DNA of 64,000 bases from a virus. The notes below the pieces were generated by a model. It saw only the letters and a list, made by a program, of their open reading frames with translations. It did not search any database and was not told the origin of the DNA. Both the position numbers and the translations under genes were made by a program. This document shows, one piece after another, positions 16,959 through 63,399 of this stretch (the first letter of the stretch is position 1; every line of letters begins with the position of its first letter). The stretch is taken from positions 263,257 through 327,256 of the IMG/VR virus record IMGVR_UViG_3300044644_001125; one strand, 5' to 3'.

Positions 16959-16965
16959 TATTTAG
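16959..16965 (-). promoter_or_regulatory. possible late promoter (CTAAATA variant)
   Basis: CTAAATA on the minus strand overlaps the last codons of the giant structural gene and lies about 27 bases upstream of the 43-residue ORF, the same spacing as other late boxes in the window. Supported by position only. Confidence 0.35.
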
Positions 16966-19900: not shown

Positions 19901-22900
19901 AACCAGTCGCAATAAATGTTTCAGTATTATACAGCGATTGATATAATCCAGTTTTTGAAATTCTATCAAACTTCATTGCTACATTAAATAGTCTGACCTT
20001 ACTATCACCAATTACTGCGATAGCCGAAGCACTTTTTGATCCGGGTGTATTACCACCAATCAATTCAACTGTTGGTGCTTCTTTATAGCCAATTCCAGCA
20101 TTTTCAATGATAATATTAGATACCACGCCATTTGATATGTAGGCTTTTGCAGTGGCACCTACACCAGTTCCTGTTATCACAACAGATGGTGGTTGATTGT
20201 AGTTTTCACCACCAGATGCTAAAATTATTTGTTTAACCGTAAACGTATTGTTATCAGTCCACCACTTCCATGGATATTGATTTAAAGTATACCAATCATA
20301 GATGGTTACCGGTTTATTGGAACCGCCGGTATATGCAACTGGTAAGTCAAAATCACCAATAGCAATAGACGATTCTTCAGTTGTATCATACTTACTAATA
20401 TACTCACGAATAGTTGATCGATAGGGTTTAACCTCTTCGATGTAACTTTGGAAACTTTGCAAACTATCGTTTTTATAATTCAATGGTTGTTCAAAAGGTC
20501 CAACATTATGAACTGCTGTTAAGAAACTGGTTTTAAAAGCCCAATCAACATATAACTGTTCCGCAAAAACTGCGCGAACACAAGTGAAGAATAGATTACC
20601 CCATTCAGTGGCATTATTACCAATGCAAATATCATGTTTTACTGCCCGTAAGATATTACGGAGTTCTAAACTAGAATCCATATCATAGCTAATAGAATCA
20701 AACGCAGCAGAACTATCATAACCAACTCCAGAGGTAACATCATCATACAATTTTGTAGATAATTGAATTGTTCCGTTTTCTCTACCAACCATAGTATAGA
20801 AATCAGAGAAAATACCGGCATCTACTGGAACTGCGATGCACTCGAAGGTTGCCCAACCACCAGATTCGAACTCTTTTATTCTAATCAGATCGCCAATTAC
20901 TGGATTAATTGTCTTAATTGATACGATTGCTGTGATTTCATTGGTTACTTTTGAAGAACTATTATAACCAGTTGCCCACCAATCAACGTATGACCAGTAT
21001 TTGGTAGTATCATATGCTTGCGCTGAACTTCTAACAAATTGTTTACTTACTGAATCCCACGCATATATACTCCAATAACCACTAATAGTAGAATCAGAAT
21101 TAACTAATACAGAATATGGTCTTACTGTCGCGGTTGCATTGCTGTATTTTTTACCACTACTAATAATATTAGCCTGGATTGCACTACCATTTTTATCAAT
21201 AATCAGTTGAACAACCGCACCAGTTCCATCACCAGATACGGTCACTAATGGTCCTTGATACCCAACCCCTTGATAATTATACGCAGGTATACTGATACTT
21301 TCATACACTGGTACGTTTGGTTTATAGCCGTATCCTTGTTTTACGATATTAACTGCTGTTACTTTACCATTAGTTAATTCCACACCCAACTCGGCTTGAG
21401 TTACTCGAGTAATACCAACATTTTGTAAATCCTGATAGGTATCGACTGTTGTATCGTAGTAGTTTAACTCAACGATCGGTGCTTGATCTACCAAATTAAG
21501 GTTACTAAAGTTCATGTTACCAGTAAACGGTTCAGTAGTTAAGATTGAATTTACATTAGTAATTACCATTTTAAGGGCAGGTAATCTATCAATAAACATA
21601 CTTTGGCGTGGTCTAAAACTAACACCATATTTCAATTTAGTTGGTAGTGTATTATCTGGTACTCTATTACCAACAACATCTCTACCAATTACACTATCAA
21701 TCCACTTTGCTTCTAATTCGTTAGATAATTCAAATGATTCGCTACCTTCAGACAATAACTGATATTCGTTATGAACTGGCACTTGATTATATGAATCTTT
21801 GAAATATTCAATATTAACCAATGCAGTTTCTGTTGTTAGTACCGAACCAAAGTTATAAGCTAACATTGCAGCAGGTGAACATAAACCAACAAACGCAATA
21901 CCAGTACCAATTGGGTTATCAATCGCATTTGCAACATCCAATGCTGATAAATTTCTACCAATCACAGCATCTGGTATTAATGCCGTGTTTTTAACCCAGT
22001 AGTAATACTGCGTTCCAGTGACTACACCAGTTACTGAATTATACAACTCTTTAACAACCATAACGGAATCATCTGAGTACAACGGCTGCCCAGAAATACC
22101 AGAAGCTAATCCTTCCGTTGTATCTGCCAATGATGCCCATTCTGAAGGTAATATTGTAGTTTTAACCCATTCATAAACATCGACCGTTGAACCAGTAACT
22201 TGAACATTCCAATGGCCTGTCCGATAAGTTAAATCATCTTGTTCAGCATACATCCATTTTGATTTAGAAATATCCCACCAAAGTGTCCCAACATTCTTAT
22301 CTGCCCATGCTTGTGATGGTTCTATGATTTGAGTTTCATCATTGGTACCAATAGAATAGACCGCTGGGTCATACATTGTTTTAAACGTGATTTCCTGTTC
22401 AGCAATATTCAATACTTTTAACTTTGAATTATCAACGTAATCAACATCTTGAATTTTCAAACTGTTAACATTGTCATATAATGAAATGCTTTTAACATTG
22501 CGAGTATCGACTACTTGTTGTTGAGATGCAATTATATCCCAAGCACCATTAGAATTGGTATTCGTGAACATACGCAAACATCCCACTAATGTGTCACTAG
22601 TCGGTAATGTGTAAGTTGGTGAACCAACAAATATTGATGAATCAGTGCATGCTAAACTTCCACCAAATGATTCATAAGGACGTAATGTAGGTTTTAATTC
22701 TGAAGTTAGTAGGTATTGGTCGCCTTTCTTTTCGAATACATAAACTGCACCGGCATATCCACGTTCACTATAGAATGTAGTTCTACCACCATCAAAAGTA
22801 GCATTGAATGAATCATAAGTTACATAGTCAGTATTTTTCGCACTAATTACTATTCTATTGTCACTAATAGCAACACTACTACCAAATTGTTCATTGGTGA

Positions 22901-25900
22901 TATATTCAAAACTTTCAATAGTTTGTGATAATACATACTGAGAATTAACCTTGGTATATACATACGCTTTACCTTGGTCGATAATTGAACTATCTGCATT
23001 TGGACTAGTTATAACTAGTGTTGAACCAGTTGGATTGATAGCAATCGCATGTCCAAATTTATCACCAGTAGCATCACCAACCATATCATCAAGTTTAACA
23101 ACCGAACTGTCATTCGATGCGTATATATAAACTGAGCCTTTTGGCTGATTTTCACCAACTGGATTTCCAACAACTAACGTAGATCCATCAGAAGTCATTA
23201 CTAACGATTTACCAAATTCGTCCATATCAGTGCTGTTTTCTGGTAATGTATAAGTGGCGTCACCAAATACCCATTCTGAATTTGTATATCTATAAGTGTA
23301 TACAATACCATGGTTATTTGTTAACGTGCTATCACCTGGGTGAACTGCTGCAGAAACAGCTAAAAGATAATCGGTATCCGATGTTTTACCAAGTGCAACC
23401 GCTGTTCCAAACTGAACAGTATTCTCTAAATCTGGACTAACAAATGAAGTTGAATATCTCCAGTTATTATCGTAATATTCATACACTGAAATAACACCTT
23501 GATTGGTTATATTACTCGGTGTACCAGTAGAATCTGATATGATATTTGATGCCTCCTTCCACTTTGTTTTATCAGCAGTGGTATCATTGATACTATCGCC
23601 GATAATTTCAACAATAGATTCCAACAATGCATTTGAAGTTTTTACAATAGCACCAATTGGATATATTGCAGTATTAGTATACGCACCTCGGTAATTACTA
23701 CGAATATGAGATGCACTAGGTGACCCAACAATCAAGAATTTATTGTCTGGTGATATCGCCATCGATTTACCGAATGAACCATCCAATGAGCTACTACCAG
23801 TACGAATCCCTGAAATTGGTTCAACTGATTGATACCAATCCAACCCAGTAGTTCCAACCGAATAAACTTCAATTCTATTAGAACCAGGAATACTGGTAAT
23901 AACTTGGTTTAATGTTTTTGCATACACCGTGGTTGTACCAACACCAATTGGATTATCACCATAAACTGTAGGACTAACTACTGAATATTGGTCTTTCTTT
24001 TGTGATACTTCCCACTTATCAGAATCATTCGCATCAACCCACAGTTTAGCACCGACTGGCAACGTAGCAGCATACAAATCATCAATATCAGAGTATGATT
24101 TATATCTAGCTTTCTTGAAGGTACAAGCATAAATTGGTTTGTTTTGGTTTAATGTTGGGATTGTAGATAGCAATGAACTATCAATAGAGACAGTATTCCA
24201 AGTCACACCAACTACTTTAAATATACCAGAAAACGCAGTGATTGTTCCTAGTGGTCTGACAGCAAATACATCACCAACTTCATAGGTATGTCTACTAGAA
24301 AGTTCAAAATCAATTGTACTGGTTTCTGTGATGTTTACTACGCGCAACGCAGTATCATTGAATCTAAAGACATTCCAAGAATAATCATCGAATGTTACCC
24401 AGATATTGGCATTGTCTTTAATTGCACGGATATCAAGATTTAGAATATCATCAATAGTTTTAACCATATATGAAACGTGTTTAGTGTTAACATACCCAGC
24501 AGTTCTCGATGGTTCTGTTTCATATGATAACTTATTAATACCAACTGTATTACTTGGAGTTAATGTGAAATCAGATGACTTGATTTGGTACGCAATACCA
24601 TCAGATACGGATGTATCAGTAACTAGTAATGGTTGTGGGTTAAGTTTTATTTTATTCTTCTCGATATAAAACTCAAATTCTTCGATTGCATCCACCCCAC
24701 CAAACTGGCCAACTCTAAATGCCCATTCTTCATTAAGAACAATACTAGAATCACCAGATCTGCTTAGTTTATCAAATACCTTGGTTACTGCATTAATTGT
24801 ACCTTTTTCACGAATAAATCCTTGATATAGCTGGAATTGAGTAACTGGATCTTCTGCTAAATCTTGCAAATAACCTCTAGGTTGATACCCAATGGCATGC
24901 CTTGCTAGAGTTCGTTGTGATTCACCAATACCTTCCGCAGTAGTATCGTAATATTCATCAAATTGGTTAATCTTATAATCAAAGTTAGAAACCAATTCCT
25001 TTGTTGGGTTTGTATCAAGTTTAGACCAAACTGCATTGTCAAATGATTCGGTGCTTGTATGTGATTTAATACAAGTCCAATTTGTTGAACGATAAGCAAC
25101 AATATCACCTAGTTTGTAATCTTTATATTGTTGCCAAACAACAATATTAACATTGTCGAATAAGAATCCTGGGCTTGTGTAATCACCATCCCAATCAACT
25201 GTTCTAAATCCCTGTGATTTGATTCTACCTTGTCTATAACCTGTAGTTTTATCATAGATAACATCGTTGAAAACCGTTCTATCAGAAAATACGGTTACAT
25301 GCTCTTTTAGAACACAGTACATATTAAGGTAATAAATCCCATCAGTTGTCGAATCTGGTGTGATGACAATATTTTGGAAAGTTCTAGTTACATTAAGTTG
25401 TTCAATCGGGAATACTTGACCATTACTTTTTAAGATTTCGTAATCATAAAATCCATCAGTTAAGCTATCAACAACACCACCATTCATATTAATTTCAATT
25501 CTACTTGAAATTGGACTTAATGAAATAAGAGATCCAGCTGCCCAATTATGCTTCGTCCAGAACATGAATTCTTTACAACTCGTTGTCCAGTTAATAGGCA
25601 CTCGGTTTTCAGCATCATATCCACTGAATACAAATCCGATAGATTTCAAGTAAACTTCATAACCCAACAAGAAATCAACTACTTCTTGAATAGATTCCAA
25701 GGTAGTTCCATATAGCATTTGTTTAATAGTAAACTTATTGAATGATTTACGATTTTTAGCTACAACTTCGCCGGTTATCGGCAAATTTGACAGCAACTTC
25801 CAGTAATCGTGCTCATCATTAAATGTCGTACTTGAATTGGTTTTTAATGCTCTGTAAAAATGCTGTTCATATCTTACGATTTGACCATTCGCATACGTTA

Positions 25901-28900
25901 CATTTGGTTCCCAATCAGTATAGGCCGCACTAACACCACCAACAGAAATGACTTGGTCGGTATTCTGTGGAGTAATAGTCAAATATGGATCTTTACTAGA
26001 AGCCAGAGCTTCGTAATAATTAAAGAATTGATTATTTGAGTTATATCCACTAATTACCCAACCAGTATCTGATTTAGTTATCATCACACCACTATACGTT
26101 ATAGTACGAATGGGTGAACTAACATTGAATATAATGTCATAGTTTTCAGGTGGAACAAATACTGTACTACCGAGTGTACTTGTTTTACTATCAAGTATAT
26201 ACTTTTGTTGGTCTGTTACTACGAAACCAGATAGTCGGGTAGATAACTTCACATCTAAGTTCTTGATTTTTTTCTCAACCAATACTGGGTCGGTACCTTT
26301 GGATTTAGCATGGTCAACCAAATAGGTAATCAAACCAGTGGATTGCACTGTGTTAGTTGGGATAACCAAGTCTGATAAGGTAACAAATACACCACTTGTA
26401 GTGTGTACTGTTTGTCCAACCAAATTGGTTTTTGTTCTTGACGAATCAAATCTATCTGAAATATATTCAAATGGTTTCATCAAACACATAGCAATACTAA
26501 CCGTAAACGCCCAGTCTGAACTAGAACGCCAAGCATATTCTACCGGTGATACATCACCAAATACAAAACTACCTTGTGTTGCATATATGTCATAATTATG
26601 AGCTAATCTTGACATCAATGGACTTAGCAATGCACCATGTTCATCAACTGGTAAATGATCTAATAAGGTACTACGCTTATATCTAGCATATTCACCTGCT
26701 CTTTCACCTTGACGGATAATACCGTCACGTAAATCTTCCCATAGAATCAAGTTATTGCTTGTATATGGTGCTGGACCATATTCGGATTCCCACCACAACG
26801 GCTGTTGTGAAAAACCAAGCATCTCCCATGGGCATCTATGTGGTCGATCTGTGTCATAAAACCAATTATAAATTCCACGCCAGTACCCAGGCAATCCCTG
26901 CGTACTAGTAGGATCTGTCATATTACTATAATTATAAGTGAACGTATTCGATGAATCATACCAATCATTATTAGTATAAGTCATCTGATATTGTGTAGAC
27001 CACTTATAGAATTCGGTTTTAATTACAGAATCTATCTCGTCTTTTGAATACAAGCCAGTGTCGTAATAACCACCCATGATTGAATCCAAATCAAATATAT
27101 CTGAATTATATTCTTGTTTGATATTGTTATAGATTCTTAATTCCAATTCTAATAACAAATCATCACGATAGTCTTCATACGCTGCAGTTATACTACCATC
27201 ATGCCCCTGAATAACCATCCGAGGTGTGACATAAGTATCATCCAAGAATTTCATTGGTGTGAATTTCTTAAATAATCCCATTGATGTTGGTGTTGCTGGT
27301 ATATAGTTAACTGACGTTGACAAGTATTCACGAATTTCGACAATATCACCTTCGAATAATTCAGTTAACAATGTAACATAACCGAATACATCATTAAACA
27401 TGTAGTCGGTTGTATTCAGCAAGTGTGTTGGCTTTAACAACCCATCGGCTACTCGATACACGTATACATAAACCGCTGAAGTACTTATTTCTGTCAAATT
27501 GATTTTTTTCGACAATGCAAATGTTTTAATTCCAGTATCTTCAACTGTATATCTTATTGGCGTATAAGCACCACTACCGAGCATGTCAGAATTTGCAAAT
27601 GGGCTTTCTGCTGTTTTGGTAGATGTCATCAACGTTATCAATTCATCAACTGCATCAACGTTATTCATACCAGCATATTGCGATGCCTGTTCAATGAAGT
27701 TATTCTTAAATTCAGTATACATCTTTTTAGCATACTGTATGGATTTTATAACGTTGTGAGTTTTATCACATAATACAGTAACTGCCAATGGTGCAAGCCC
27801 AGCATGTTTCAAAAATCTCGATGCATACTGTTGGTAATTAGTCAAGTCACGAAGATTAGACACACCTGGAGTTATCCCAGAAAAATCCGAAAAGAACTCA
27901 ACTGCTGATGATATATGGTCATCCGCTTGTCCAAGCGTAAATGTCGTCATTTCTTGATTTAACGGGTTCTTTTCCAACCCAACTGGCATTTGATAATACC
28001 CAGTATTTGGATCGATATTAGCAATTATCTTAATAGATACGATATCATTAACCGCTAAGTTTTTTGGAAACGTAAACTGATCACCTTCTCTGAAATACGT
28101 TCCAGTATAAGGTTTTCCATTTATGTACAATCTAACAATTAGGTCTGATAACGGTATGTTTGAAAAATCAATGGTAGTAAAGGTTACTACTGTCGTAGCC
28201 TCTGTGATTTTTTGACTATCGATGATAGGTTGGATGTACTTGTTATCAGTTTTAATCCAGCCATTATCGAATTCTAAGCCAATATTAGTTAGTTTGTAAT
28301 ACCCGGATTCTATCTTTTTTGTTGTAGTTACTTTGTTTATCGCATAAGTAAACGTGTCAATACCAAAGTTCCAATTGAACTGGATATCTCCAATGTTACC
28401 GATGTTTAGGTAACTTAAACTGAATCCAAGCTGAGTATCTGTTCTACCATTACCAACTTTATAACTAAGAATTTTAGAACCAGCAAATGTACTACCTGGA
28501 TAATATTCAGTATTTGAAAAACTAATTTCATTATCGTCGTATACATCAAATAAAGGTGCTTGGTTAACTGCAGTTTTTTGTTGACTTAATACCCATTTAA
28601 CACCATCAAAATGGAACATTTCACCACCAAAGTTTTTACCATGTTTGATAAGAACGCATTGGTCAATGTATGGTAATGAATCATCCACCTCTATCAAATG
28701 AATTTGTGGAACTATAGTTGTGGTGGTATCAGTTATTGATTGCGTATTATGGTTGAAGTTCATTAACTGAACTTCGTAAATCTTATTATTGACTAAGTTA
28801 TCAGTATCTGCGGTTACTAATATTCTAGCACCGTGAAATAAGGTTTCATTATCAATTTGGTACCCAGAACTACCTTCAATTGTAGAAAAAACATCAGTGG

Positions 28901-30551
28901 TTAGGGTATCAACAAAATCAACTGGTCTTTTTGCAATCGCACCATAATTGAATAGTCTTAAATTTGACGAGAACTCGATGATAGGACGTTTTGCTCTATT
29001 AGTTTCTGGTGCAGAGTATTCTTGCCCACGAATAGCACATGAGTACTCAAGAACAGAACGATGGAACCATCGATTGTATCGACTCCATGAATTAGAATCA
29101 ATACTAGAATGTGATATCGTAATATAATCTTGGTCAGTTGGATAAGCACTAGCCTCATCAAATGGCTGTGTGTCGAATCCTTCGTTGTCAAAAAGAACAT
29201 CAGGAACATCTTTAGAAATTCTAGGTGTTACCAAATCGGCAAATGGCATCAATGTTATAGACGAACCAACACCACTAACCAACCAAGTACCACTAGCATA
29301 TGTCGATGGAGTTACTGAACCCCTGAATTCAACAACTAAACCATTGGTGAATACAATACCATTGCTACTTGTGTAGTTTTTTAATCCAACGATTTCAGCA
29401 TTAACATCAATTTCAGTATTAATCTTAATATCGGCAATGATGAATCTACCCAATTTATTTGGATCTAATGGGCTTTGATAATATAAGGAATCAGGTGCAT
29501 CATAAGGAACTTGGAATGTAACAGTTGCATTACTTGTACCATTATTCATCACACCTGTGTTATATTCCAACGAAGGTGCTTTAACAACATACCCAATGAA
29601 TCTCCATTCAGCCGAACCAGTCACAGGTAGGGATATTACATCGCTTGGTATGTTAGCAATTGCTTCCCATAATCCATTTGAATATACAACAGTCGAACCA
29701 ATCTTATATTCAGTTCCGGTGATATATTCATTAAATGCAGTTTGATATATGAATCTAACGAATTCCCAATCAGTAATTAAATTAGGAACTGTTCTGGTTG
29801 CACTTGCAACAATTCGAGTTTTTGCACGAATTAACTGGTTTTCATAAACCGCAAGTTGACCTTGGGTATATGCAAGTACTGGATTGTAAGAAATTGAACC
29901 GGTATCATACTGCGTTCTAATGATAAAACTATCATTAGGTGTATTAACATTAAACTTGTAAGTTTGACCACGATATAGGGTCAATGTTGGATTGTTAACT
30001 ACATTAGCTACATTCGTGACTTGTGTGAACACAAAAGAATTAGCAGCAACTGTTACATTGTACTCACTAATTACCTTTGCACTATGCCCAATTACTGGAA
30101 CTGAAAGAGGACCATCTGGTTCCCAGAAGTATTCACGATAATTGATAAATTTATCCCAACTAATTGGTGGATTCCACGAATAATGTTGTTGTGATGTGAT
30201 ATGGTCATCTCTATCATTAGTATTACCAAAGAATTTAAGTTGGTTCTTTAAATCAATGTAATCATAAAAGTTTTCGATTTTATCGCCATCTGTAAACACC
30301 ACACCAGGTTCTAACTGATATCTACTACGAAGCGTGTTATCAGAATCCAGATAGGTATCAGAACCACTGTATGTTTTTCCGTATCTTCGACCGACATAAC
30401 CAACTGTCTTTTGTAAAAGACCAGGTTGAATTAATGGATCGACAGCGGCCGCCATGAATTTGTTGTTTGTTTCCGTTTTAAAAACGCCTGGCAATAAGTC
30501 AACAGTTTTTCTTATTGGTAATTGGCTTTCTGGGTAAAATTGTTCAGTCAT
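16962..30551 (-). CDS. giant 4,529-residue virion structural protein with beta-propeller insert
   Basis: One open frame of 13.6 kb, the largest gene in the window. The N-terminus (LPIRKTVDLLPGVFKT, VGYVGRRYGKTYSG, LRSRYQLEPGVVF) is of a type I recall from very long structural proteins in T4-like aquatic phages. Residues about 2240-2665 hold a run of FG-GAP/integrin-type propeller blades (FGKSMAISPDNKFLIVGSP, FGTAVALG, FGKSLVMTSDGSTLVVGNP, FGHAIAINPTGSTLVITSP, FGSSVAIS, FGGSLACTDSSIFVGSP). Other stretches are beta-rich modules with small carbohydrate-binding-like repeats. It lies directly after gp6, where T4 has gp7, so a baseplate-wedge or fibre-network role is plausible but unproven. No frameshift or internal stop is present. 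Confidence 0.75.
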   Translation of the reverse strand: MTEQFYPESQLPIRKTVDLLPGVFKTETNNKFMAAAVDPLIQPGLLQKTVGYVGRRYGKTYSGSDTYLDSDNTLRSRYQLEPGVVFTDGDKIENFYDYIDLKNQLKFFGNTNDRDDHITSQQHYSWNPPISWDKFINYREYFWEPDGPLSVPVIGHSAKVISEYNVTVAANSFVFTQVTNVANVVNNPTLTLYRGQTYKFNVNTPNDSFIIRTQYDTGSISYNPVLAYTQGQLAVYENQLIRAKTRIVASATRTVPNLITDWEFVRFIYQTAFNEYITGTEYKIGSTVVYSNGLWEAIANIPSDVISLPVTGSAEWRFIGYVVKAPSLEYNTGVMNNGTSNATVTFQVPYDAPDSLYYQSPLDPNKLGRFIIADIKINTEIDVNAEIVGLKNYTSSNGIVFTNGLVVEFRGSVTPSTYASGTWLVSGVGSSITLMPFADLVTPRISKDVPDVLFDNEGFDTQPFDEASAYPTDQDYITISHSSIDSNSWSRYNRWFHRSVLEYSCAIRGQEYSAPETNRAKRPIIEFSSNLRLFNYGAIAKRPVDFVDTLTTDVFSTIEGSSGYQIDNETLFHGARILVTADTDNLVNNKIYEVQLMNFNHNTQSITDTTTTIVPQIHLIEVDDSLPYIDQCVLIKHGKNFGGEMFHFDGVKWVLSQQKTAVNQAPLFDVYDDNEISFSNTEYYPGSTFAGSKILSYKVGNGRTDTQLGFSLSYLNIGNIGDIQFNWNFGIDTFTYAINKVTTTKKIESGYYKLTNIGLEFDNGWIKTDNKYIQPIIDSQKITEATTVVTFTTIDFSNIPLSDLIVRLYINGKPYTGTYFREGDQFTFPKNLAVNDIVSIKIIANIDPNTGYYQMPVGLEKNPLNQEMTTFTLGQADDHISSAVEFFSDFSGITPGVSNLRDLTNYQQYASRFLKHAGLAPLAVTVLCDKTHNVIKSIQYAKKMYTEFKNNFIEQASQYAGMNNVDAVDELITLMTSTKTAESPFANSDMLGSGAYTPIRYTVEDTGIKTFALSKKINLTEISTSAVYVYVYRVADGLLKPTHLLNTTDYMFNDVFGYVTLLTELFEGDIVEIREYLSTSVNYIPATPTSMGLFKKFTPMKFLDDTYVTPRMVIQGHDGSITAAYEDYRDDLLLELELRIYNNIKQEYNSDIFDLDSIMGGYYDTGLYSKDEIDSVIKTEFYKWSTQYQMTYTNNDWYDSSNTFTYNYSNMTDPTSTQGLPGYWRGIYNWFYDTDRPHRCPWEMLGFSQQPLWWESEYGPAPYTSNNLILWEDLRDGIIRQGERAGEYARYKRSTLLDHLPVDEHGALLSPLMSRLAHNYDIYATQGSFVFGDVSPVEYAWRSSSDWAFTVSIAMCLMKPFEYISDRFDSSRTKTNLVGQTVHTTSGVFVTLSDLVIPTNTVQSTGLITYLVDHAKSKGTDPVLVEKKIKNLDVKLSTRLSGFVVTDQQKYILDSKTSTLGSTVFVPPENYDIIFNVSSPIRTITYSGVMITKSDTGWVISGYNSNNQFFNYYEALASSKDPYLTITPQNTDQVISVGGVSAAYTDWEPNVTYANGQIVRYEQHFYRALKTNSSTTFNDEHDYWKLLSNLPITGEVVAKNRKSFNKFTIKQMLYGTTLESIQEVVDFLLGYEVYLKSIGFVFSGYDAENRVPINWTTSCKEFMFWTKHNWAAGSLISLSPISSRIEINMNGGVVDSLTDGFYDYEILKSNGQVFPIEQLNVTRTFQNIVITPDSTTDGIYYLNMYCVLKEHVTVFSDRTVFNDVIYDKTTGYRQGRIKSQGFRTVDWDGDYTSPGFLFDNVNIVVWQQYKDYKLGDIVAYRSTNWTCIKSHTSTESFDNAVWSKLDTNPTKELVSNFDYKINQFDEYYDTTAEGIGESQRTLARHAIGYQPRGYLQDLAEDPVTQFQLYQGFIREKGTINAVTKVFDKLSRSGDSSIVLNEEWAFRVGQFGGVDAIEEFEFYIEKNKIKLNPQPLLVTDTSVSDGIAYQIKSSDFTLTPSNTVGINKLSYETEPSRTAGYVNTKHVSYMVKTIDDILNLDIRAIKDNANIWVTFDDYSWNVFRFNDTALRVVNITETSTIDFELSSRHTYEVGDVFAVRPLGTITAFSGIFKVVGVTWNTVSIDSSLLSTIPTLNQNKPIYACTFKKARYKSYSDIDDLYAATLPVGAKLWVDANDSDKWEVSQKKDQYSVVSPTVYGDNPIGVGTTTVYAKTLNQVITSIPGSNRIEVYSVGTTGLDWYQSVEPISGIRTGSSSLDGSFGKSMAISPDNKFLIVGSPSASHIRSNYRGAYTNTAIYPIGAIVKTSNALLESIVEIIGDSINDTTADKTKWKEASNIISDSTGTPSNITNQGVISVYEYYDNNWRYSTSFVSPDLENTVQFGTAVALGKTSDTDYLLAVSAAVHPGDSTLTNNHGIVYTYRYTNSEWVFGDATYTLPENSTDMDEFGKSLVMTSDGSTLVVGNPVGENQPKGSVYIYASNDSSVVKLDDMVGDATGDKFGHAIAINPTGSTLVITSPNADSSIIDQGKAYVYTKVNSQYVLSQTIESFEYITNEQFGSSVAISDNRIVISAKNTDYVTYDSFNATFDGGRTTFYSERGYAGAVYVFEKKGDQYLLTSELKPTLRPYESFGGSLACTDSSIFVGSPTYTLPTSDTLVGCLRMFTNTNSNGAWDIIASQQQVVDTRNVKSISLYDNVNSLKIQDVDYVDNSKLKVLNIAEQEITFKTMYDPAVYSIGTNDETQIIEPSQAWADKNVGTLWWDISKSKWMYAEQDDLTYRTGHWNVQVTGSTVDVYEWVKTTILPSEWASLADTTEGLASGISGQPLYSDDSVMVVKELYNSVTGVVTGTQYYYWVKNTALIPDAVIGRNLSALDVANAIDNPIGTGIAFVGLCSPAAMLAYNFGSVLTTETALVNIEYFKDSYNQVPVHNEYQLLSEGSESFELSNELEAKWIDSVIGRDVVGNRVPDNTLPTKLKYGVSFRPRQSMFIDRLPALKMVITNVNSILTTEPFTGNMNFSNLNLVDQAPIVELNYYDTTVDTYQDLQNVGITRVTQAELGVELTNGKVTAVNIVKQGYGYKPNVPVYESISIPAYNYQGVGYQGPLVTVSGDGTGAVVQLIIDKNGSAIQANIISSGKKYSNATATVRPYSVLVNSDSTISGYWSIYAWDSVSKQFVRSSAQAYDTTKYWSYVDWWATGYNSSSKVTNEITAIVSIKTINPVIGDLIRIKEFESGGWATFECIAVPVDAGIFSDFYTMVGRENGTIQLSTKLYDDVTSGVGYDSSAAFDSISYDMDSSLELRNILRAVKHDICIGNNATEWGNLFFTCVRAVFAEQLYVDWAFKTSFLTAVHNVGPFEQPLNYKNDSLQSFQSYIEEVKPYRSTIREYISKYDTTEESSIAIGDFDLPVAYTGGSNKPVTIYDWYTLNQYPWKWWTDNNTFTVKQIILASGGENYNQPPSVVITGTGVGATAKAYISNGVVSNIIIENAGIGYKEAPTVELIGGNTPGSKSASAIAVIGDSKVRLFNVAMKFDRISKTGLYQSLYNTETFIATGYTSVFNLMYAPLNEKNRITVYINDKLILSSEYTVELVIPAGNANIATSGMIIFNNNPIVGDVIVVNYEKHDSLLDSVNRISKYYQPMSGMKGNQLSQLITGVDFGGVQVQGTTFDVTGGWDSQPWFTDNWDSVEQSSDYYYVCDGIANPVIATTVTLPFVPVAGQHINIYVKRESWKSVKQYGLKSTAYTLYDGSMPSVIRLDDIAYTSQWDSTSTINPYAQMPTFIGDGVSATIDIGSYFDTIQGDTLIFRPEESDGSLVINDPNIVDTNMSGGSLERLNNAYTTATGLKAEEIIIEGGKFISPENVSATEENVPGQVLDSLSIKVFDTKSTGSTPLHSTVFISDGITTTYSIGLPIIEFSSVIVTVNKVKKSIDTHYTINLTNNTVKFVLPVTAGAIIEITAIGVGGVAILDSKSFVADGKSAKFATNAKFKDTTSVYVTVNGISTDASFGSTTGKKITGKTEVTVNPMPTVSDDVKVVCFGANANVDFDTSIARINEQTFIYTDNPEFTLSMFAVEPTNHQYTPMIVNVNGSALTGVDTTYGVYTGSTAQFKIELGSGYATPSNIKVYVNGVLKSFLVDYVFNEEMTLVTIDSLVINDVVLIENNSNAEYSINGNTLIISSELTTNDVVNVVWFTQYQTMQLLTDEHVGGKASYALAMKPIDSSYVWVYVNGVKLTPIRDYYLSDDKTKVYLLDTTSESDMVKVVLFGSKLCSTKSYEISKDMLNVFRYNRYSIGTIQLAKDLNYYDTEILVTDASLLSIPVAARNQPGTVLINGERIEYLMLTDNTLSQLRRGSMGTAIAELYTAGTDVADVSIQERIPYNETEMKESFMIDGSTRSVGPLSYIPVKSVRTNWAAGNIPTGYGPCDQVEVFVGGRRLRKNPMHVFNESLGSTSPRADELLDAEFSVDGTSNYIRLTDSVLDSIPVNASVNVVVYRKVGKVWYEQTATAASAGITLLENNTPMAKFISQKTTAMIG

Positions 30552-30562
30552 TAGTCACACTT

Positions 30563-47619: not shown

Positions 47620-48045
47620 TAGAAAGGTGAGAGAATTGCTAAGAAAGCCGCGCACAGGCGACCATTACGTGCCCTTAAACCCTGGTCTACTTGAATCACA
47701 GGGGATGGAAGTTCCGACATTAGCAACGGAGATATAGTTCACTACCCCACCAGATGAGTTATGGGATATGCCTTCATACAACCCATTTGAACTATAGCAA
47801 AAACGAATAACCAAGGCTAAAGATGGGTTGAGAAAACCCACGTTTACTAGATAAGGTAGCTGTTGTCTAGTAAGCCACCGTCAGATTAATAAGACTGAGC
47901 TCGAGGTACCGGCTGACCGCCTCTGTAATGCTCTACATGCTACTGTGATGCGATGCTTGTACGCAGAACCCTTGGACGTTTCAGTTCCACAATTAGAAAT
48001 GTCCATTGTCCTTTGAATTAACCCGAGTTTTTCGGGTTAAGATGT
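47620..48045 (+). ncRNA. candidate large structured non-coding RNA
   Basis: A 0.4-kb segment without ORFs whose composition is richer in G and C than its surroundings and which contains many perfect or near-perfect stems. They are CCCTG/CAGGG (47680-47703); TATAGTTCA/TGAACTATA enclosing 46 bases (47733-47741 with 47788-47796); GGGTT/AACCC near 47825; TTACTAGA/TCTAGTAA (47844-47851 with 47866-47873); CGG/CCG with a CTGA loop near 47910; GGACGTTTC/GAAATGTCC (47974-47982 with 47996-48004); and TTAACCCGA/TCGGGTTAA (48018-48040), a possible 3' end. A promoter stands at 47393. I do not recognise the family. Large phage RNAs such as GOLLD are one possibility to test. Confidence 0.55.
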
Positions 48046-55929: not shown

Positions 55930-58900
55930 ATGTCTTGGAAAAAACACTTCAAACCAGTTACTATCGACGGTCACGGTTCTCATAGCCCAATCAGCGGCGG
56001 TGGAAGACCAGGCCCTGCTAAAACTAACTACTCTAGCTTCCTACCAGATGTCTACGCTGGTACACCAAACCGCATCGATAGATACATGCAATATGATACC
56101 ATGGACATGGACTCTGAAGTCAATGCCGCTCTCGATATCATCGCAGAATTCTGTACGCAAAAAGATAAAGAAAATGAAACACCTTTTCATACCTCCTTCC
56201 GTGGACAACCTACCTCCACCGAAGTTAAACTCATTAAAGACTGCTTGCAGAAATGGTGCAAACAACAACAATTCGAAACTCGTATCTTTAGAATCGTCAG
56301 AAATACCTTCAAGTACGGTGACTGCTTCTTCCTAAGAGACCCCGAAACTAAGAAATGGTTGTACGTTGACCCAGTCAAAGTTAGTAAAATTATCGCAAAC
56401 GAATCAGAGGGCAAAATCCCTGAACAATACGTTATCAAAGATATTAACTTTAACTTTAAAAACTTAATCGCCGTAACTCCTCATGGTATCACCAATACCT
56501 CACCCAGCGGTACTGCCAGTTATACTTCAGGTGGCAGCCTAGCTAGAGGTATGGTAGGCGATACAGCTAGAGCTACCGGTACCAGATTCCAAAATGCAAT
56601 CAATGAAATCGCAGTCGATGCCAAAGACGTTGTTCATATCAGCCTCAGTGAAGGTCTTGATAATAACTTCCCATTTGGTAATAGCTTACTCGAATCTGTT
56701 TTCAAAGTCTATAAACAAAAAGAATTGCTCGAAGATGCGGTTATTATCTACAGAATTCAGAGAGCACCAGAGCGTTTGGTGTTTTATGTTGACGTAGGTA
56801 ACATGCCAGCACATTTGGCAATGGGCTTTGTTGAAAGAGTTAAGAATGAGATTCAACAAAGACGTATACCAAGCTCAACAGGCGGTGCATCTGGTAGTAC
56901 AGTCGATTCAAGTTACAATCCACTTTCAGTAGGTGAAAACTTTTATTTGCCTTCCACAAGTGAGGGACGTGGCTCTAGGGTTGAAACATTGCCAGGTGGC
57001 TGTTTCGCAATGGATACTAAAGTATCGTTATTAGATGGTCGTGAACTATCTATCCGTGATATCGAAACTGAACTAAAAGATGGTAAAACCTTATGGACTT
57101 ACTCATGTGAACCAATAACAGGTAAAGTCTTACCCGGATTAATCACATGGGCTGGTGTTACACATAAGTCTGCTAAAGTTATGAAAATAACTTTAGATAA
57201 CGGTGAAACTATTACATGTACACCTGATCACAAGTTCCCAGTATACGAACAAGAGTTTAAACGTGCTGACGAGTTTAAAGTTGGTGATAGTCTGATTCCT
57301 CTTTATAGAAAAACTGAGAAAGTATCAGCAAAAGCCAACGATTACGAACAGTATTTTGATAATGCCGATAAAACTTGGAAATTCACACACAGAACTGTTG
57401 CTGATTATCTAAAAGATGATGTAGTAAAATTCGAAGTATACAAAGAAGAGTACACAAGCGGATTGTATGAAGTTCGTCATCACAAAAACTTCAATCGGTT
57501 CGATAATTCACCAGAAAACCTGTGCTTTATGGGTTGGAGAGACCATATTAGGTTTCATGGCGAAAATTTTGCAAGTACCTTGGAATATCTAAAAGAAAAT
57601 GAACCTGAGTTATACCAAGCACGCTGTGATGCGATAAGCCTCGGTCATACTAAACGATGGGAAGGGCTAGCAGATGAAGATAGAGCCGCTGTTGGTATTA
57701 AATCAGCAGAAGCATGGGCTAGATGTACACCGGAAGAATATGACAGCTGGTGTGAAAGTATTAGTGAGGGGTTGCTAGAGTATTGTGCAAACTTAACACC
57801 TGAAGAAAAAGAAATTCGCGATGCCAATTCGCGTGCTGCTTTTATCATCGGAAACCAGAAGTTCAATGAAAAGATGCAGAATGATCCAGTATTTTATGCG
57901 ATGGTTGTTGGTAAACGAATGACATATTGGACACCAGAGAAGCGTGAATGGCGTGCAGAACAAACACGTGCGAATGGCTTAGTTTTCCGTGAAACTGAAT
58001 CATACAAAGAAAATACCAAAAAATCGGCAGATTCTCAACGTATGAAATATTCACACAAAATGCTGAAATATGTTATAAACTTGGTTAAAGGTAAAACCAC
58101 ATATCAAGTTGGATTAACCGATGTTGTAAACGCATTGAACAATGATCAAGAAATGCTTGATGAATTGTACGAGCTGAATAAAGAAAACACCACGCCAAAT
58201 TGGAAAGTCTCCGACGGCTACACTGAATCGAATGTTAAAACCATGGTTAAACATTTTGGATATGAAAAATGGTCTGATTTCCGTAGAAAAGAAAGCATAC
58301 ACAATCATACAATCACAGCCATTGAATACTTGGATGATGAGATTGAGGTTGGTACGTTGACCATTGATAATGACGAAAAATACCATAATTATCATACATT
58401 TGCGTTGAGTTGTGGGGTATTTGTGTTCAATAGTCAGACAGGTGAAATAACGGATTTGCGCTACTTCACCAATAAGTTGTTTAGAGCTCTCCGTATACCA
58501 GCAAGTTACTTACCAACTGGTATTGAAGAAGCCTCGAATACCGTAGCGGATGGAAAAGTGGGAACTGCGTATATCCAAGAGTTTAGATTTAATGAGTATT
58601 GTAAACGACTACAGAACTTATTGGTACAGACGTTTGATTTGGAGTTTAAACTTTGGTTATATTCGCAAGGTATCAACATTGATAGTAGTTTATTTGAACT
58701 GAAGTTTAATGAGCCGCAGAACTTTGCAGCGTATAGACAAAGTGAGTTAGATACGACTCGAGTGAATATCTTTGCGCAGTTGCAAGAGATACCATATTTG
58801 AGTAAACGCTTTGCAATGAAGCGATTCTTGGGTATGACACAAGAGGAGATCACAGAGAATGAAGCCATGTGGCGTGAAGAGAACGGCCATAAGTTAGAAT

Positions 58901-59100
58901 CATTGGTAGATGGTGCTGGAGAGTTACGTTCTGCTGGGATTTCGCCAAGTGGAATTGCATCTGATATGAGTTCACAAGACGAGCAGGCACCTGAAGGCGT
59001 AGGTCAAGGACCAGACGGTGAGGCTGGTGGTATTGGTTCTGCTCCAGGTCCAATGGGTAATGCGGCACCTGGACCGACTGGTGGCCCAATGGGTATGTAA
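55930..59100 (+). CDS. gp20: portal vertex protein, gp20-like, interrupted by an intein
   Basis: A 1,056-residue precursor. Residues 1-357 and 835-1056 are the portal, which forms the dodecameric ring for DNA entry and tail attachment. Family features are RIDRYMQYDTMDMDSEVNAA near 50 (in parts), FKYGDCFFLRD near 127, and VETLPGG just before the intein. The C-extein opens SQTGEITDLRYFTNKLFRALRIP, seen as QTGEITDLRYF and LRIPASYLP. Without the intein the protein would be 579 residues, near T4 gp20 (524). The insertion splits the conserved LPGG/xxLGE-type active region, the usual kind of site for inteins. The first third uses many C-ending codons, unlike the rest of the gene. The end is Gly/Pro-rich. 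Confidence 0.93.
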   Translation: MSWKKHFKPVTIDGHGSHSPISGGGRPGPAKTNYSSFLPDVYAGTPNRIDRYMQYDTMDMDSEVNAALDIIAEFCTQKDKENETPFHTSFRGQPTSTEVKLIKDCLQKWCKQQQFETRIFRIVRNTFKYGDCFFLRDPETKKWLYVDPVKVSKIIANESEGKIPEQYVIKDINFNFKNLIAVTPHGITNTSPSGTASYTSGGSLARGMVGDTARATGTRFQNAINEIAVDAKDVVHISLSEGLDNNFPFGNSLLESVFKVYKQKELLEDAVIIYRIQRAPERLVFYVDVGNMPAHLAMGFVERVKNEIQQRRIPSSTGGASGSTVDSSYNPLSVGENFYLPSTSEGRGSRVETLPGGCFAMDTKVSLLDGRELSIRDIETELKDGKTLWTYSCEPITGKVLPGLITWAGVTHKSAKVMKITLDNGETITCTPDHKFPVYEQEFKRADEFKVGDSLIPLYRKTEKVSAKANDYEQYFDNADKTWKFTHRTVADYLKDDVVKFEVYKEEYTSGLYEVRHHKNFNRFDNSPENLCFMGWRDHIRFHGENFASTLEYLKENEPELYQARCDAISLGHTKRWEGLADEDRAAVGIKSAEAWARCTPEEYDSWCESISEGLLEYCANLTPEEKEIRDANSRAAFIIGNQKFNEKMQNDPVFYAMVVGKRMTYWTPEKREWRAEQTRANGLVFRETESYKENTKKSADSQRMKYSHKMLKYVINLVKGKTTYQVGLTDVVNALNNDQEMLDELYELNKENTTPNWKVSDGYTESNVKTMVKHFGYEKWSDFRRKESIHNHTITAIEYLDDEIEVGTLTIDNDEKYHNYHTFALSCGVFVFNSQTGEITDLRYFTNKLFRALRIPASYLPTGIEEASNTVADGKVGTAYIQEFRFNEYCKRLQNLLVQTFDLEFKLWLYSQGINIDSSLFELKFNEPQNFAAYRQSELDTTRVNIFAQLQEIPYLSKRFAMKRFLGMTQEEITENEAMWREENGHKLESLVDGAGELRSAGISPSGIASDMSSQDEQAPEGVGQGPDGEAGGIGSAPGPMGNAAPGPTGGPMGM
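57001..58431 (+). other. intein with HNH homing endonuclease inside the portal protein
   Basis: Precursor residues 358-834 (477 residues). Block A begins CFAMDTKVSLLDGRELSI with the splicing Cys. Block B is ETITCTPDHKFPVYE, with the Thr and His of the TxxH motif. An HNH nuclease core, VRHHKNFNRFDNSPENLCFM followed by WRDHIRFH, lies near residue 520. Three or four TPEE-type repeats of NUMOD kind follow. Block F is YHTFALSCGVF, and the intein ends VFVFN, with Ser as the first C-extein residue. The next-to-last residue is Phe instead of the usual His. Removing the segment joins LPGG to SQTGEITD in frame, restoring a normal portal sequence. It should splice itself out and home into intein-free portal alleles. 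Confidence 0.92.
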
Positions 59101-60908: not shown

Positions 60909-60942
60909 AAGATAATTGAATCGCAGTTCAACCATAATCTTG

Positions 60943-60966
60943 CGAGCACCGCTAGGTGCGAGCCAA
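60943..60966 (+). repeat. GCGAG-hairpin-CGAGCCA element, copy 4
   Basis: Same stem as copy 1 (CACC, loop GCTA, GGTG). It ends 11 bases before the ATG of the DUF1566-like gene B1, directly upstream of its ribosome site (AATAGGAAACC), so it would be in the 5' leader. Confidence 0.85.
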
Positions 60967-60977
60967 TAGGAAACCAA

Positions 60978-61286
60978 ATGAAATTCGAAATAGCACCTAA
61001 ATCGACAGAGATCCAAACCAACTGGGAAGATGCCAGACTCTACTGCTTCTCTCTTAATATAGACGGTAAAACCGGATGGCGATTACCAAGTGTTTATGAA
61101 TTAGAATCGTTTACCAGATCAACCAATATGGAAAATGCTCTGTATTGGACTGGTACATCATACAAGAGTTACCCAAATGGCGCTACTTCGATTCATTTTG
61201 GTAAAAACAGTTGCTCCGTCCATTTCTTTACCAAAGAATCTTCGTTGTGGGTTAGAGCAGTGAGAGATCTAAAAGATGATCTTTGA
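60978..61286 (+). CDS. DUF1566-like small protein, cluster 2 gene B1
   Basis: A 102-residue paralogue: FEIAPKSTEIQTNWEDARLYC (shown as FEIAPKSTEI and NWEDARLYCFSLNIDGKTG), WRLPSVYELE, then a unique part from LYWTGTSYKSYPNGATSIHF to KESSLWVRAVRD. It ends LKDDL, encoded by a near copy of the 12-mer, CTAAAAGATGAT, whose ATG is also the start of the next gene (11-base overlap). AGGAAA precedes the start, and a hairpin element lies before it. Confidence 0.8.
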   Translation: MKFEIAPKSTEIQTNWEDARLYCFSLNIDGKTGWRLPSVYELESFTRSTNMENALYWTGTSYKSYPNGATSIHFGKNSCSVHFFTKESSLWVRAVRDLKDDL

Positions 61287-61566
61287 AATAGCACCCAAAT
61301 CAACAGAGATCCAAGCCAGCTGGTATGAAGCTAGAATGTATTGCTTCTCCCTTAATATCGATGGTAAGATCGGATGGAGATTACCAACTAAAGAAGAATT
61401 GAATGAGATATACCTTTCAGAAAATGATTTTGAAAAACGTTGGTATTGGTCCTCTACTGAGTACCTTGGCAACGGCGCCTGGGTTCAGTATTTCGGCGAT
61501 GGCGACCAGGGCAACTTCGGTAAGAGCAGCGGCGGCTTCTACGTTAGAGCCATTAGATCAATATAA
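61276..61566 (+). CDS. DUF1566-like small protein, cluster 2 gene B2, with NNC-rich variable end
   Basis: A 96-residue paralogue with the conserved front (IFEIAPKSTEIQASW, YCFSLNIDGKIGWRLPTKEE). After YWSSTEY the codons (nt 61470-61545) are nearly all NNC or NNT, giving LGNGAWVQYFGDGDQGNFGK and a Ser/Gly run, in a genome whose codons mostly end in A or T. The end, YVRAIRSI, is then identical in B5. A hairpin element begins five bases after the stop. This layout resembles the variable region plus downstream hairpin of a diversity-generating retroelement target protein; the C-type-lectin-like fold fits as well. Confidence 0.82.
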   Translation: MIFEIAPKSTEIQASWYEARMYCFSLNIDGKIGWRLPTKEELNEIYLSENDFEKRWYWSSTEYLGNGAWVQYFGDGDQGNFGKSSGGFYVRAIRSI

Positions 61567-61571
61567 TAGAA

Positions 61572-61595
61572 GCGAGCACCGCTAGGTGCGAGCCA
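61572..61595 (+). repeat. GCGAG-hairpin-CGAGCCA element, copy 5
   Basis: Stem CACC, loop GCTA, stem GGTG. It starts five bases after the stop codon of B2 and ends 14 bases before the ATG of B3, followed by AATAGGAAAAC, the ribosome site. Confidence 0.85.
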
Positions 61596-61609
61596 ATAGG
61601 AAAACAACA

Positions 61610-61933
61610 ATGATTGAAATAGCACCCAAAGAATACGAAATTAGTATAGGTTACCAAGAAGCAAGGATGTATTGCTTTTCACTTAACATTGATGGTAAAA
61701 TAGGTTGGAGATTACCTACAATTGAAGAGTTGGAAAACATCTATACCTGTGTGAATGATTTTATGAAAAACGGGTGGTATTGGTCATCGACTGAAGTTGA
61801 AAACGGAGTTTGGTTTAAATCATTTAGTCGATACCCGAAACACGGACCAACTGGATGGAAAGATATCATCTATTTTGACGAATTTCATACAAATGTAAAC
61901 TCCTGTTTAGTCAGACCAGTGAGAGACCTATGA
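61610..61933 (+). CDS. DUF1566-like small protein, cluster 2 gene B3
   Basis: A 107-residue paralogue from the ATG at 61610. A longer frame starts at a GTG inside the hairpin and is not credible. It has IEIAPKEYEISIGYQEARMY at the front, NIDGKIGWRLPTIEELENIY, then a long unique part (WYWSSTEVENGVWFKSFSRY onward, with a GWKDIIYFDEF insert) and ends LVRPVRDL. It overlaps the next gene by four bases (ATGA). Confidence 0.8.
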   Translation: MIEIAPKEYEISIGYQEARMYCFSLNIDGKIGWRLPTIEELENIYTCVNDFMKNGWYWSSTEVENGVWFKSFSRYPKHGPTGWKDIIYFDEFHTNVNSCLVRPVRDL

Positions 61934-62271
61934 CTTATTTTTCAACAAAACTTTACCCGCCAACTCCACGATTACCATGTCAACTGTCGGATTCTATGTA
62001 TTGGAAGAAAATGTCTTGGGAAGAAGCCAAGATGTATTGCTTTTCTCTTAATGACAGGGGTATAATTGGATGGAGATTACCTACGTTATTTGAGTTGAAC
62101 AGTATTATATTACGAGTATCCTCACCACTAGACCATGAATTTGAGATTTGGTCAGAAGAAAATGGACAGGACATTGCTTGGTTTATGTCTAGTCGGAATA
62201 GTCAGAGATTGGCAAGCAAGTATATGGATGATATTTACTGTATCCCAGTTCGAGATCTAAAAGACGATTAA
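61930..62271 (+). CDS. DUF1566-like small protein, cluster 2 gene B4 (diverged)
   Basis: A 113-residue relative with a different N-terminus (MTYFSTKLYPPTPRLPCQLS) and the core WEEAKMYCFSLNDRGIIGWR, then LPTLFELNSI. The YWSS motif is replaced by FEIWSEENGQDIAW, and the end is PVRDLKDD, again encoded by a 12-mer-like CTAAAAGACGAT. It starts four bases inside B3. Loss of the family N-terminus suggests a different partner. Confidence 0.75.
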   Translation: MTYFSTKLYPPTPRLPCQLSDSMYWKKMSWEEAKMYCFSLNDRGIIGWRLPTLFELNSIILRVSSPLDHEFEIWSEENGQDIAWFMSSRNSQRLASKYMDDIYCIPVRDLKDD

Positions 62272-62291
62272 TACCACTGAGAAAAACCAAA

Positions 62292-62588
62292 ATGAACTTT
62301 GAAATAGCACCAAAATCAACCGAAATACTATCCACATGGAATGATGCCCGTTTGTATTGTTTCTCTCTTATTATTGATGATAAAACTGGATGGAGATTAC
62401 CCACTAAAGATGAATTAAACGAAATATACGAATCAGAAAATGATTTTGAAAAACGTTGGTATTGGTCTTCTACTGAGTATAATGGCAACAGCGGCATCTT
62501 GGGTCAGAATATGAATGGTGGCATCCAGGGCTACGGTGGCGGTAAGAACTACGCCGTCGCCTACGTTAGAGCCATCAGATCAATATAA
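62292..62588 (+). CDS. DUF1566-like small protein, cluster 2 gene B5, with NNC-rich variable end
   Basis: A 98-residue paralogue. The front is FEIAPKSTEILSTWNDARLY, then CFSLIIDDKTGWRLPTKDEL and NEIYESENDFEKRWYWSSTEY, the last part identical to B2. The variable part (nt 62480-62560) is NGNSGILGQNMNGGIQGYGG followed by GKNYAVA, again with almost only NNC/NNT codons, and differs from B2 at most positions and by two residues in length. The last 29 bases before the hairpin are nearly identical to those of B2. A hairpin element starts four bases after the stop. Confidence 0.82.
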   Translation: MNFEIAPKSTEILSTWNDARLYCFSLIIDDKTGWRLPTKDELNEIYESENDFEKRWYWSSTEYNGNSGILGQNMNGGIQGYGGGKNYAVAYVRAIRSI

Positions 62589-62592
62589 TATC

Positions 62593-62616
62593 GCGAGCAC
62601 CGCTAGGTGCGAGCCA
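62593..62616 (+). repeat. GCGAG-hairpin-CGAGCCA element, copy 6
   Basis: Stem CACC, loop GCTA, stem GGTG, four bases after the stop of B5 and 14 bases before the ATG of B6, followed by AATAAGGAAAACC. Confidence 0.85.
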
Positions 62617-62630
62617 ATAAGGAAAACCAA

Positions 62631-63026
62631 ATGACAGAAGACCAATTCCTGCAATCCCTAAAACTAAAGCCTAAGCCAATTGAACCAATCGAGGTTTACG
62701 AGTCTTTGAATATAGAAATTGCACCCAGTCATTACTGTAGGCAACTGACTTGGGCGGATGCAAAACTTTACGCGTTTGCTTTAAACATAGAAGGTAAGAT
62801 CGGATGGAGATTACCGTGTGACGAAGAAATGGGTTGCTTACTTGAAAATCATCCAAGATTTAACGGTTTCTGGTATATGCAATACTGGTGTGATGTAATC
62901 AAATCCGGCCGTATAACATCTAAAGAGTATACTGCGTGGTTGGAACCCACTGGTCTACATTTCCAAACTCGTAATGGCGAATATGTACATAATACTGTCT
63001 TTGTCCGAGATCTAAAAGATGATTGA
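62631..63026 (+). CDS. DUF1566-like protein, cluster 2 gene B6, with N-terminal extension
   Basis: A 131-residue relative from the ATG at 62631 (AAGGAAAA before it); the longer frame from 62607 starts inside the hairpin and is rejected. About 30 extra N-terminal residues (MTEDQFLQSLKLKPKPIEPI) precede the core NIEIAPSHYC, WADAKLYAFALNIEGKIGWR. The variable part is Trp/Tyr-rich (FWYMQYWCDVIKSG) and the end is VFVRDLKDD. Its stop lies eight bases inside the next gene. Confidence 0.78.
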   Translation: MTEDQFLQSLKLKPKPIEPIEVYESLNIEIAPSHYCRQLTWADAKLYAFALNIEGKIGWRLPCDEEMGCLLENHPRFNGFWYMQYWCDVIKSGRITSKEYTAWLEPTGLHFQTRNGEYVHNTVFVRDLKDD

Positions 63027-63294
63027 GATATCACCTAAATCATTCGAAAAGCGTCTAACCCACGACGATGCTAAATTTTACGTATTCTCACTAGGTAATG
63101 GTTGGCGATTCCCAACAGTTGAGGAATTGCGAATGATACATGGTTCTGATAATGATTTGGAAAACGAGTTACATTTTACTAATTCCGATACGTTAGTTTC
63201 TTTTAGTTATCGGCGTTTCATCAAATGTTTCGAACGGAATGAATGCGAAGATGATTGTTTTATCAGACCAGTCAGAGATCTAAAAGATGATTAA
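63019..63294 (+). CDS. DUF1566-like small protein, cluster 2 gene B7 (short)
   Basis: A 91-residue relative: MIEISPKSFEKRLTHDDAKF, then YVFSLGNGWRFPTVEELRMI. The NIDGK segment is deleted and WRLPT is WRFPT. The variable part has no WSS motif. It ends IRPVRDLKDD through a 12-mer-like CTAAAAGATGAT. It is the last of the family and is followed by a terminator. Confidence 0.78.
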   Translation: MIEISPKSFEKRLTHDDAKFYVFSLGNGWRFPTVEELRMIHGSDNDLENELHFTNSDTLVSFSYRRFIKCFERNECEDDCFIRPVRDLKDD

Positions 63295-63375: not shown

Positions 63376-63399
63376 GCGAGTGCCGCTAGGCACGAGCCA
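63376..63399 (+). repeat. GCGAG-hairpin-CGAGCCA element, copy 7 (different stem)
   Basis: GCGAG, stem TGCC, loop GCTA, stem GGCA, flank CGAGCCA. Compared with copies 1 and 4-6 the two arms carry paired changes that keep the stem. It lies 71 bases before the next ATG. Confidence 0.85.

Follow-up and report, generated by a model that had tools for sequence, protein, structure and literature searches.

Lcl_C genes and hairpins at the end of the window

The window analysed here, a stretch of 64,000 nucleotides, comprises bases 263257-327256 of a 327,256-bp virus record (G000), i.e. the end of that record. Toward the end of the window, seven genes of one family, B1 to B7, follow one another on the plus strand. 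Two of them, B2 and B5, carry at the 3' end a variable region (VR) of the type found in targets of diversity-generating retroelements (DGRs). The features are as follows.

60942-60962 (+): hairpin copy in the leader of B1 (pattern match)
60978-61286 (+): B1, Lcl_C/DUF1566 single-domain gene (PF07603 E 1.1e-11), with a variable segment without template signature; C3 of the last 40 codons 0.20
61276-61566 (+): B2, Lcl_C gene with a pristine DGR-type VR (PF07603 E 1.7e-12); 1 of 30 VR third bases off the leave-one-out consensus
61462-61539 (+): VR of B2, 26 codons, with base changes relative to G001
61540-61566 (+): constant 3' block of B2, IMH-like, YVRAIRSI-stop; 31-mer with 3 mismatches to B5
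61572-61592 (+): hairpin copy, stem GCACC/GGTGC, loop GCTA, 5 bases past the B2 stop
61610-61933 (+): B3, Lcl_C-family gene without template signature (family profile match)
61930-62271 (+): B4, Lcl_C-family gene without template signature (PF07603 E 4.7e-07, below cut-off; family profile)
62292-62588 (+): B5, Lcl_C gene with a DGR-type VR (PF07603 E 3.7e-09); 3 of 30 VR third bases off the consensus
62478-62561 (+): VR of B5, 28 codons, with codon differences relative to relatives
62562-62588 (+): constant 3' block of B5, near-identical to the B2 block
62593-62613 (+): hairpin copy, 4 bases past the B5 stop
62631-63026 (+): B6, Lcl_C-family gene without template signature (family profile)
63019-63294 (+): B7, Lcl_C-family gene without template signature (family profile)
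63376-63396 (+): hairpin copy downstream of B7, stem GTGCC/GGCAC (pattern match)

The last 176 bases of the record equal its first 176 bases with 2 mismatches, and three contigs of close relatives span the junction from the end to the start at 98.7-99.1% identity. Thus, G000 is treated as the closed genome, about 327,080 bp (~327 kb), of a T4-like jumbo phage. Its portal is T4-like and has an intein, and the nearest relatives of the portal, at 46-48% identity, are from large phages, e.g. Sinorhizobium phage Phosso and Serratia phage BF. In the window, the portal gene occupies 55930-59100 and is split by the intein, which has a match to an HNH endonuclease. The window also contains an Rfam match to the Polynucleobacter-1 RNA (RF01718, 80.1 bits) at 47647-47797 on the plus strand, and one open frame of about 4530 codons at about 16965-30554 on the minus strand.

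A family profile, built from B1-B7 and then refined on its own matches, detected 83 paralogous Lcl_C-family ORFs in the genome. Each protein consists of one Lcl_C (PF07603, DUF1566) domain, with about 97 residues in the VR genes, and the PF07603 cut-off is passed by B1, B2 and B5. DUF1566 is a known and common DGR target domain (PMC6642488). The AF2 model of B2 (pLDDT 96.1, pTM 0.87) gave as its best PDB match the Lcl C-terminal domain (8q4e; E 9.7e-07, TM 0.83, 30% identity), followed by C-type lectins; B2-type proteins are thus predicted to have a C-type-lectin fold with the variable residues in the C-terminal part. About 13 of the 83 genes, including B2 and B5, have a DGR-type VR at the 3' end. 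These genes, hereafter called fresh, are located at 148.9, 230.3, 236.7-240.4, 324.5 and 325.5 kb of the genome, and have in common a constant block at the 3' end of the VR (TACGTTAGAGC...), a putative homing block (IMH-like). A few more family genes are NNC/NNT-rich and look older. Long tandem runs of overlapping family genes were observed at 111-119 kb, 157-161 kb and 231-232 kb; many of their products are only 68-87 aa long and have a greatly reduced C-terminal part, which gives the impression that a subfamily of mini-domains has arisen.

The original prediction took a hairpin behind B2 and B5 as a further mark of DGR targets. Copies indeed start 4-5 bases past both stop codons. However, the hairpin, which consists of GCGAG, a 5-bp stem enclosing the loop GNTA, and CGAG, has 48 copies across G000, mostly intergenic (in the window, e.g., at 55800, 55846, 59192, 60942, 61572, 62593 and 63376). 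Only 7 copies lie within 40 bp 3' of any family gene, and 9 of the 13 fresh genes have none at that distance, leaving four with one. All five stem pairs are Watson-Crick in 45 of the 48 copies, with many different, compensatory stem sequences and a conserved loop and flanks; no Rfam match to the hairpins was found in the window. The hairpins of phage DGRs have stems of 7-10 bp and GRNA loops, the stem sequence being free and the loop sequence important (PMC3240598). The present hairpin is notably similar to these in its variable stem and conserved 4-base loop, but its commonest loop is GCTA. Because of this loop, and because most copies are located elsewhere, we do not count the hairpin, a dispersed genome-wide element, as evidence for a DGR.

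Third bases of the variable regions and the inferred template

B2 and B5 were located as predicted, and past ...STE(Y) their stretches of 26 and 28 codons are nearly all NNC/NNT. The fraction of C-ending codons in the last 40 codons is 0.50 in B2 and 0.45 in B5, compared with 0.20 and 0.14 upstream in the same genes. The near-identity of the end blocks was also confirmed, the 31 bases from 61540 and those from 62562 differing at the 3 positions mentioned above.

The NNC/NNT codons had been proposed to derive from AAC/AAT codons of a template, and the alignment of the family bears this out, since the third base is fixed in each column whereas positions 1 and 2 are scrambled. In 18 variable columns of 22 aligned genes, the column-majority third base accounts for 78.0% of the cells. 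The corresponding null values are 53.7+-2.1% with genome codon usage and 58.8+-2.0% with VR-pooled usage, and the observed value was reached in 0 of 2000 simulations in each case. Variable columns of the N-terminal part of the same genes are close to the null (66.5% versus 59.7%, 23 of 2000 simulations). Mean entropies of codon positions 1, 2 and 3 in the 18 columns are 1.46, 1.61 and 0.86 bits, respectively. The third base is T in some columns and C in others, independent of the amino acid encoded.

One could suppose that no DGR was involved, and that ordinary diversifying selection acted on a loop whose amino acids are by coincidence encoded by NNC/NNT codons. Binding loops do favour Asn, Tyr, Asp, Gly and Ser. 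However, amino-acid choice does not explain a column-specific third base (0 of 2000 under both nulls), whereas a template of AAC/AAT codons gives such a pattern; ordinary amino-acid selection is thus ruled out as its source. Since, in addition, the inferred template retrieves genuine pairs of template repeat (TR) and VR, as described below, we find an origin without a DGR hardly credible.

The template was inferred from the VR third bases, and would be close to GAG-TAC-AAT-GGC-AAC-AAC-GCC-TGG-AAT-CAG-AAT-TTC-AAC-AAT-GGC-AAC-CAG-AAC-AAC-AAC-AAT-AAG-AAC-AAC-GGC-AAC-AAC-TAC-GTT-AGA-GCC; in a putative second form, ATG-TCA replaces TTC-AAC. One 18-mer of the template, AACGCNTGGAATCAGAAY, was searched in viral contigs. 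Among the 38 viral stretches found, most run on as adenine-rich template repeats, and at least 27 loci contain TR-VR pairs with 8-17 mismatches per 90 nt, of which 0-2 are off the template adenines. The records are from unrelated phages, and a reverse transcriptase (RT) was detected by PF00078 in 10 of the 10 tested; they double as positive controls for the RT and template searches. The bases of the 18-mer do not themselves count as independent evidence, because they were fitted to the data of the jumbo phage; the independent support consists of the adenine-only TR-VR pairs and the RTs retrieved with it. The VRs of the RT-bearing phages resemble those of the jumbo phage, and in both sets most CAG and AAG codons are unmutated. 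No difference in base spectrum was seen between the two sets at the second template adenine (p 0.5 for AAC, 0.14 for AAT); at the first, the jumbo phage has C less often than the RT-bearing phages (p 3e-4 for AAC, 0.009 for AAT).

We regard it as highly probable that B2, B5 and about 11 other genes are DGR-written target genes. Across the 83 genes, the C-ending signature drops as the conserved core diverges (Spearman 0.61), as expected if it is lost in older copies, and the other ~70 members look like such copies with a decayed template signature.

Search for the machinery

The original prediction noted neither an RT nor a template repeat in the window, and none was found when the window was searched again. 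The whole-genome search that it proposed was also carried out, and neither was found in the closed genome. No RT was detected in G000 with PF00078, phrog_1423, phmmer with the BPP-1 bRT, or, at full sensitivity, a profile built from 11 DGR RTs. The last gave weak matches under 10 bits, some of which are alternative-frame ORFs over VR genes, probably because RT reading frames of the controls extend back into template repeats. Relatives, including records of 372, 306, 88 and 72 kb and about a dozen relatives' contigs, yielded no RT. Both ends of the 372-kb record (G011; L126/L144) lie in a GCATAGCAAGC tandem repeat, and thus its closure is uncertain. Avd (NF033474) was found in none of G000, G011 and G012; all 3 DGR phages used as controls gave a match, though one that fell short of the curated cut-off. 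An ungapped, adenine-tolerant scan of both strands for a template repeat in the window, G000, G011, G012 and the relatives returned only other VR genes, and the same scan, as a control, recovered the TR-VR pairs in at least 27 loci.

Other replicons were searched as possible donors. There were 0 matches to the IMH 20-mer in species-genome contigs and 0 to the second template form in viral contigs. A gapped template pattern found 3 stretches in viral contigs and 13 in species-genome contigs, none of them template-like. Two patterns specific to the inferred template had viral-contig matches only in RT-less jumbo-phage contigs, and no INPHARED phage matched with a family protein. Thus, with the patterns tried, no donor replicon with a matching template was found in the viral and species-genome contigs.

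Taken together, the DGR reading of the locus stands for the target genes, which are strongly supported, but not for a resident DGR, because the closed genome has no RT and no template, and not for the hairpin argument. The signature stays, and the machinery would have to be placed elsewhere.

One possible explanation is recent loss, in which a DGR cassette belongs to the pangenome of the lineage, was lost or is polymorphic among the sequenced genomes, and left the VRs behind as fresh remnants. DGR parts can be lost, many family members have decayed signatures, and an RT cassette polymorphic in the population could be missed in one assembly. However, RT is lacking not only in G000 but also in the 372-kb and 306-kb relatives and in about a dozen contigs of relatives, and the template-specific VR patterns match only RT-less jumbo-phage contigs. 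We therefore consider recent loss unlikely.

Age of the variable regions and origin of the rewriting

In the fresh set, pairs of genes diverge at their third bases by a mean of 0.177 across the VR, compared with 0.371 across the N-terminus, and the VR value is the lower one in 73 of 78 pairs. However, a low mismatch of the VR third bases to the consensus was the criterion for choosing the set, and this choice favours the contrast; for that reason, individual extreme pairs outweigh the mean. At codon positions 1-2, the variable columns of the set differ by 0.57-0.60. B2 and a VR gene of a distant jumbo phage (L028/L037) share 97% of the third bases in the VR and 57% in the N-terminus, and the two phages are alignable over only about 43 kb, at 70% identity. 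This comparison indicates that both the duplication of the genes and the divergence of the phages preceded the writing, or exchange, of the VRs, which go back to a common template. The VRs are younger than their genes.

When B2 is compared with its counterparts in the relatives G001 and G004, 25 of 75 VR bases (61462-61536) differ, 22 of them at codon positions 1-2, against 2 of the 69 bases immediately upstream (Fisher p 1.1e-6). The last 30 bases differ at 3 positions, and two of these belong to the last codon of the VR. Such VR-limited change, together with the fold, the column-specific third bases and the recovered DGR templates, substantiates the predicted lectin-fold target with a 3'-terminal VR. 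Some other VRs have not changed: they are identical or nearly so between L028 and L037, and between G002 and 230270, so that any writing activity would be sporadic. The B5 VR differs from that of G001/G004 in few codons, and the differences from G003 include one codon fewer. Between relatives, B5 differs mainly in its 5' half, opposite to the usual 3' polarity of retrohoming.

These comparisons bear on the possibility that the signature is a fossil of one ancient DGR episode before the expansion of the family, followed by ordinary duplication and drift. The drop of the signature with core divergence (Spearman 0.61) and the VRs frozen between relatives would agree with it. However, the VR third bases diverge less than the N-terminal ones in 73 of 78 fresh pairs and agree between distant phages, and the B2 VR has been replaced since a recent split. 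For the fresh set, a single ancient episode is already contradicted, and we regard it as very improbable.

Recombination operates too, since the N-terminal half of B2 is also divergent in G001/G004 while the middle segment is shared; sequence patches common to several family members likewise indicate its contribution. An alternative possibility could be that the writing took place in DGR-bearing phages or hosts, and that the RT-less jumbo phages acquired the finished VRs as cassettes, by homologous recombination between conserved blocks, before these spread among paralogs. Conserved blocks (YWSSTE and YVRA) flank the VR, mosaics such as that of B2 and its relative occur, and the C-ending codons and CAG/AAG usage of the VR look foreign to an A/T-ending genome. 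However, the 3' block of the jumbo-phage VR genes is absent from all RT-bearing records found, the templates of these phages mismatch the jumbo-phage VRs at 31-41% of the non-adenine sites outside the 18-mer in close cases and at more in distant ones, and a donor VR identical to that of the relative's B2 was not found in G000. Cassette capture therefore seems to us rather unlikely.

The explanation we prefer is that adenine-directed mutagenic retrohoming overwrote, in about 13 genes of the jumbo phage, the last ~27 codons ahead of the constant 3' block. The rewriting would have been recent and repeated, later than gene duplication and the separation of the phage lineages. Since the closed genome has no RT, Avd or template, the machinery would have acted from outside. 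Its likeliest seat is another replicon present during infection, such as the host chromosome, a resident prophage, a plasmid or a helper phage, from which it would write the phage targets in trans. Plasmid-borne components of the BPP-1 DGR rewrite phage or chromosomal targets (PMC3240598, PMC12875486); thus, trans action between replicons is mechanistically plausible. Against it, no donor replicon was found, some VRs are frozen, the polarity of the B5 differences is unusual, and C is rarer at the first adenine. The explanation as a whole, i.e. genuine DGR targets recently rewritten by outside machinery most likely in trans, stands in our judgement at about even. That the writer acts in trans from another replicon is perhaps a shade less probable. 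The proposal that RT-less jumbo phages outsource hypermutation of their lectin arrays, with distant jumbo phages sharing one external template, is more tentative. The VR signature, the fold, the closed genome with its lack of RT, Avd and template, and the recent change limited to the VR are results of the analysis, whereas we infer which kind of replicon is the source, that it acts in trans, and that the array serves as a repertoire of binding domains; surface or receptor binding is a natural guess for that function.

In a limited literature search, DGR targets were described with RT and template in the same genome, and no case was found of a phage whose targets are, in nature, diversified by a DGR located elsewhere. 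Among 224 jumbo phages surveyed in one study, none was reported to have FGS (C-type-lectin-fold, DGR-type) domains (PMC7824862), and a DGR survey itself states that remote targets are missed (PMC8144416). DGR surveys anchored on the RT miss targets such as those in G000, whereas the third-base method detects such targets even where no RT is present. That the closed genome of a jumbo phage has 83 paralogs with a lectin fold, of which ~13 are freshly written, but no RT or template raises the question of whether, in nature, one replicon can provide hypermutation for another.

The targets resemble the DGR of Bordetella phage BPP-1 (mtd/bRT/Avd/TR) in the 3'-terminal VR, the C-type-lectin fold, the constant block after the VR, the adenine-limited substitutions and the presence of a hairpin near some targets. 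In BPP-1, RT and template lie beside the target, whereas G000 has neither, and has about 13 targets in a family of 83 genes. The Legionella pneumophila Lcl C-terminal domain, to which the B2 model is closest in fold, is part of a larger bacterial protein, in contrast to the free-standing array of the phage. Among phage DGRs, those of the DUF1566/Lcl_C type retrieved here (e.g. L064, L069 and L079) have the same kind of target and a near-identical template motif (AACGCNTGGAATCAGAAYTTC...GGCAACCAGAAC...); unlike G000, they have RT, an Avd-like protein, TR and VR together, in records of 17-56 kb, and a different 3' block. The multi-VR DUF1566 DGR of Stenotrophomonas sp. SKA14 is similar in having several DUF1566 targets and few templates, but its template and RT are in the same genome (PMC6642488). 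Remote CLec variable proteins of cyanobacteria are likewise dispersed paralogs, some diversified and some not; their remoteness, however, is confined to a single genome, which encodes an RT itself (PMC7517822).
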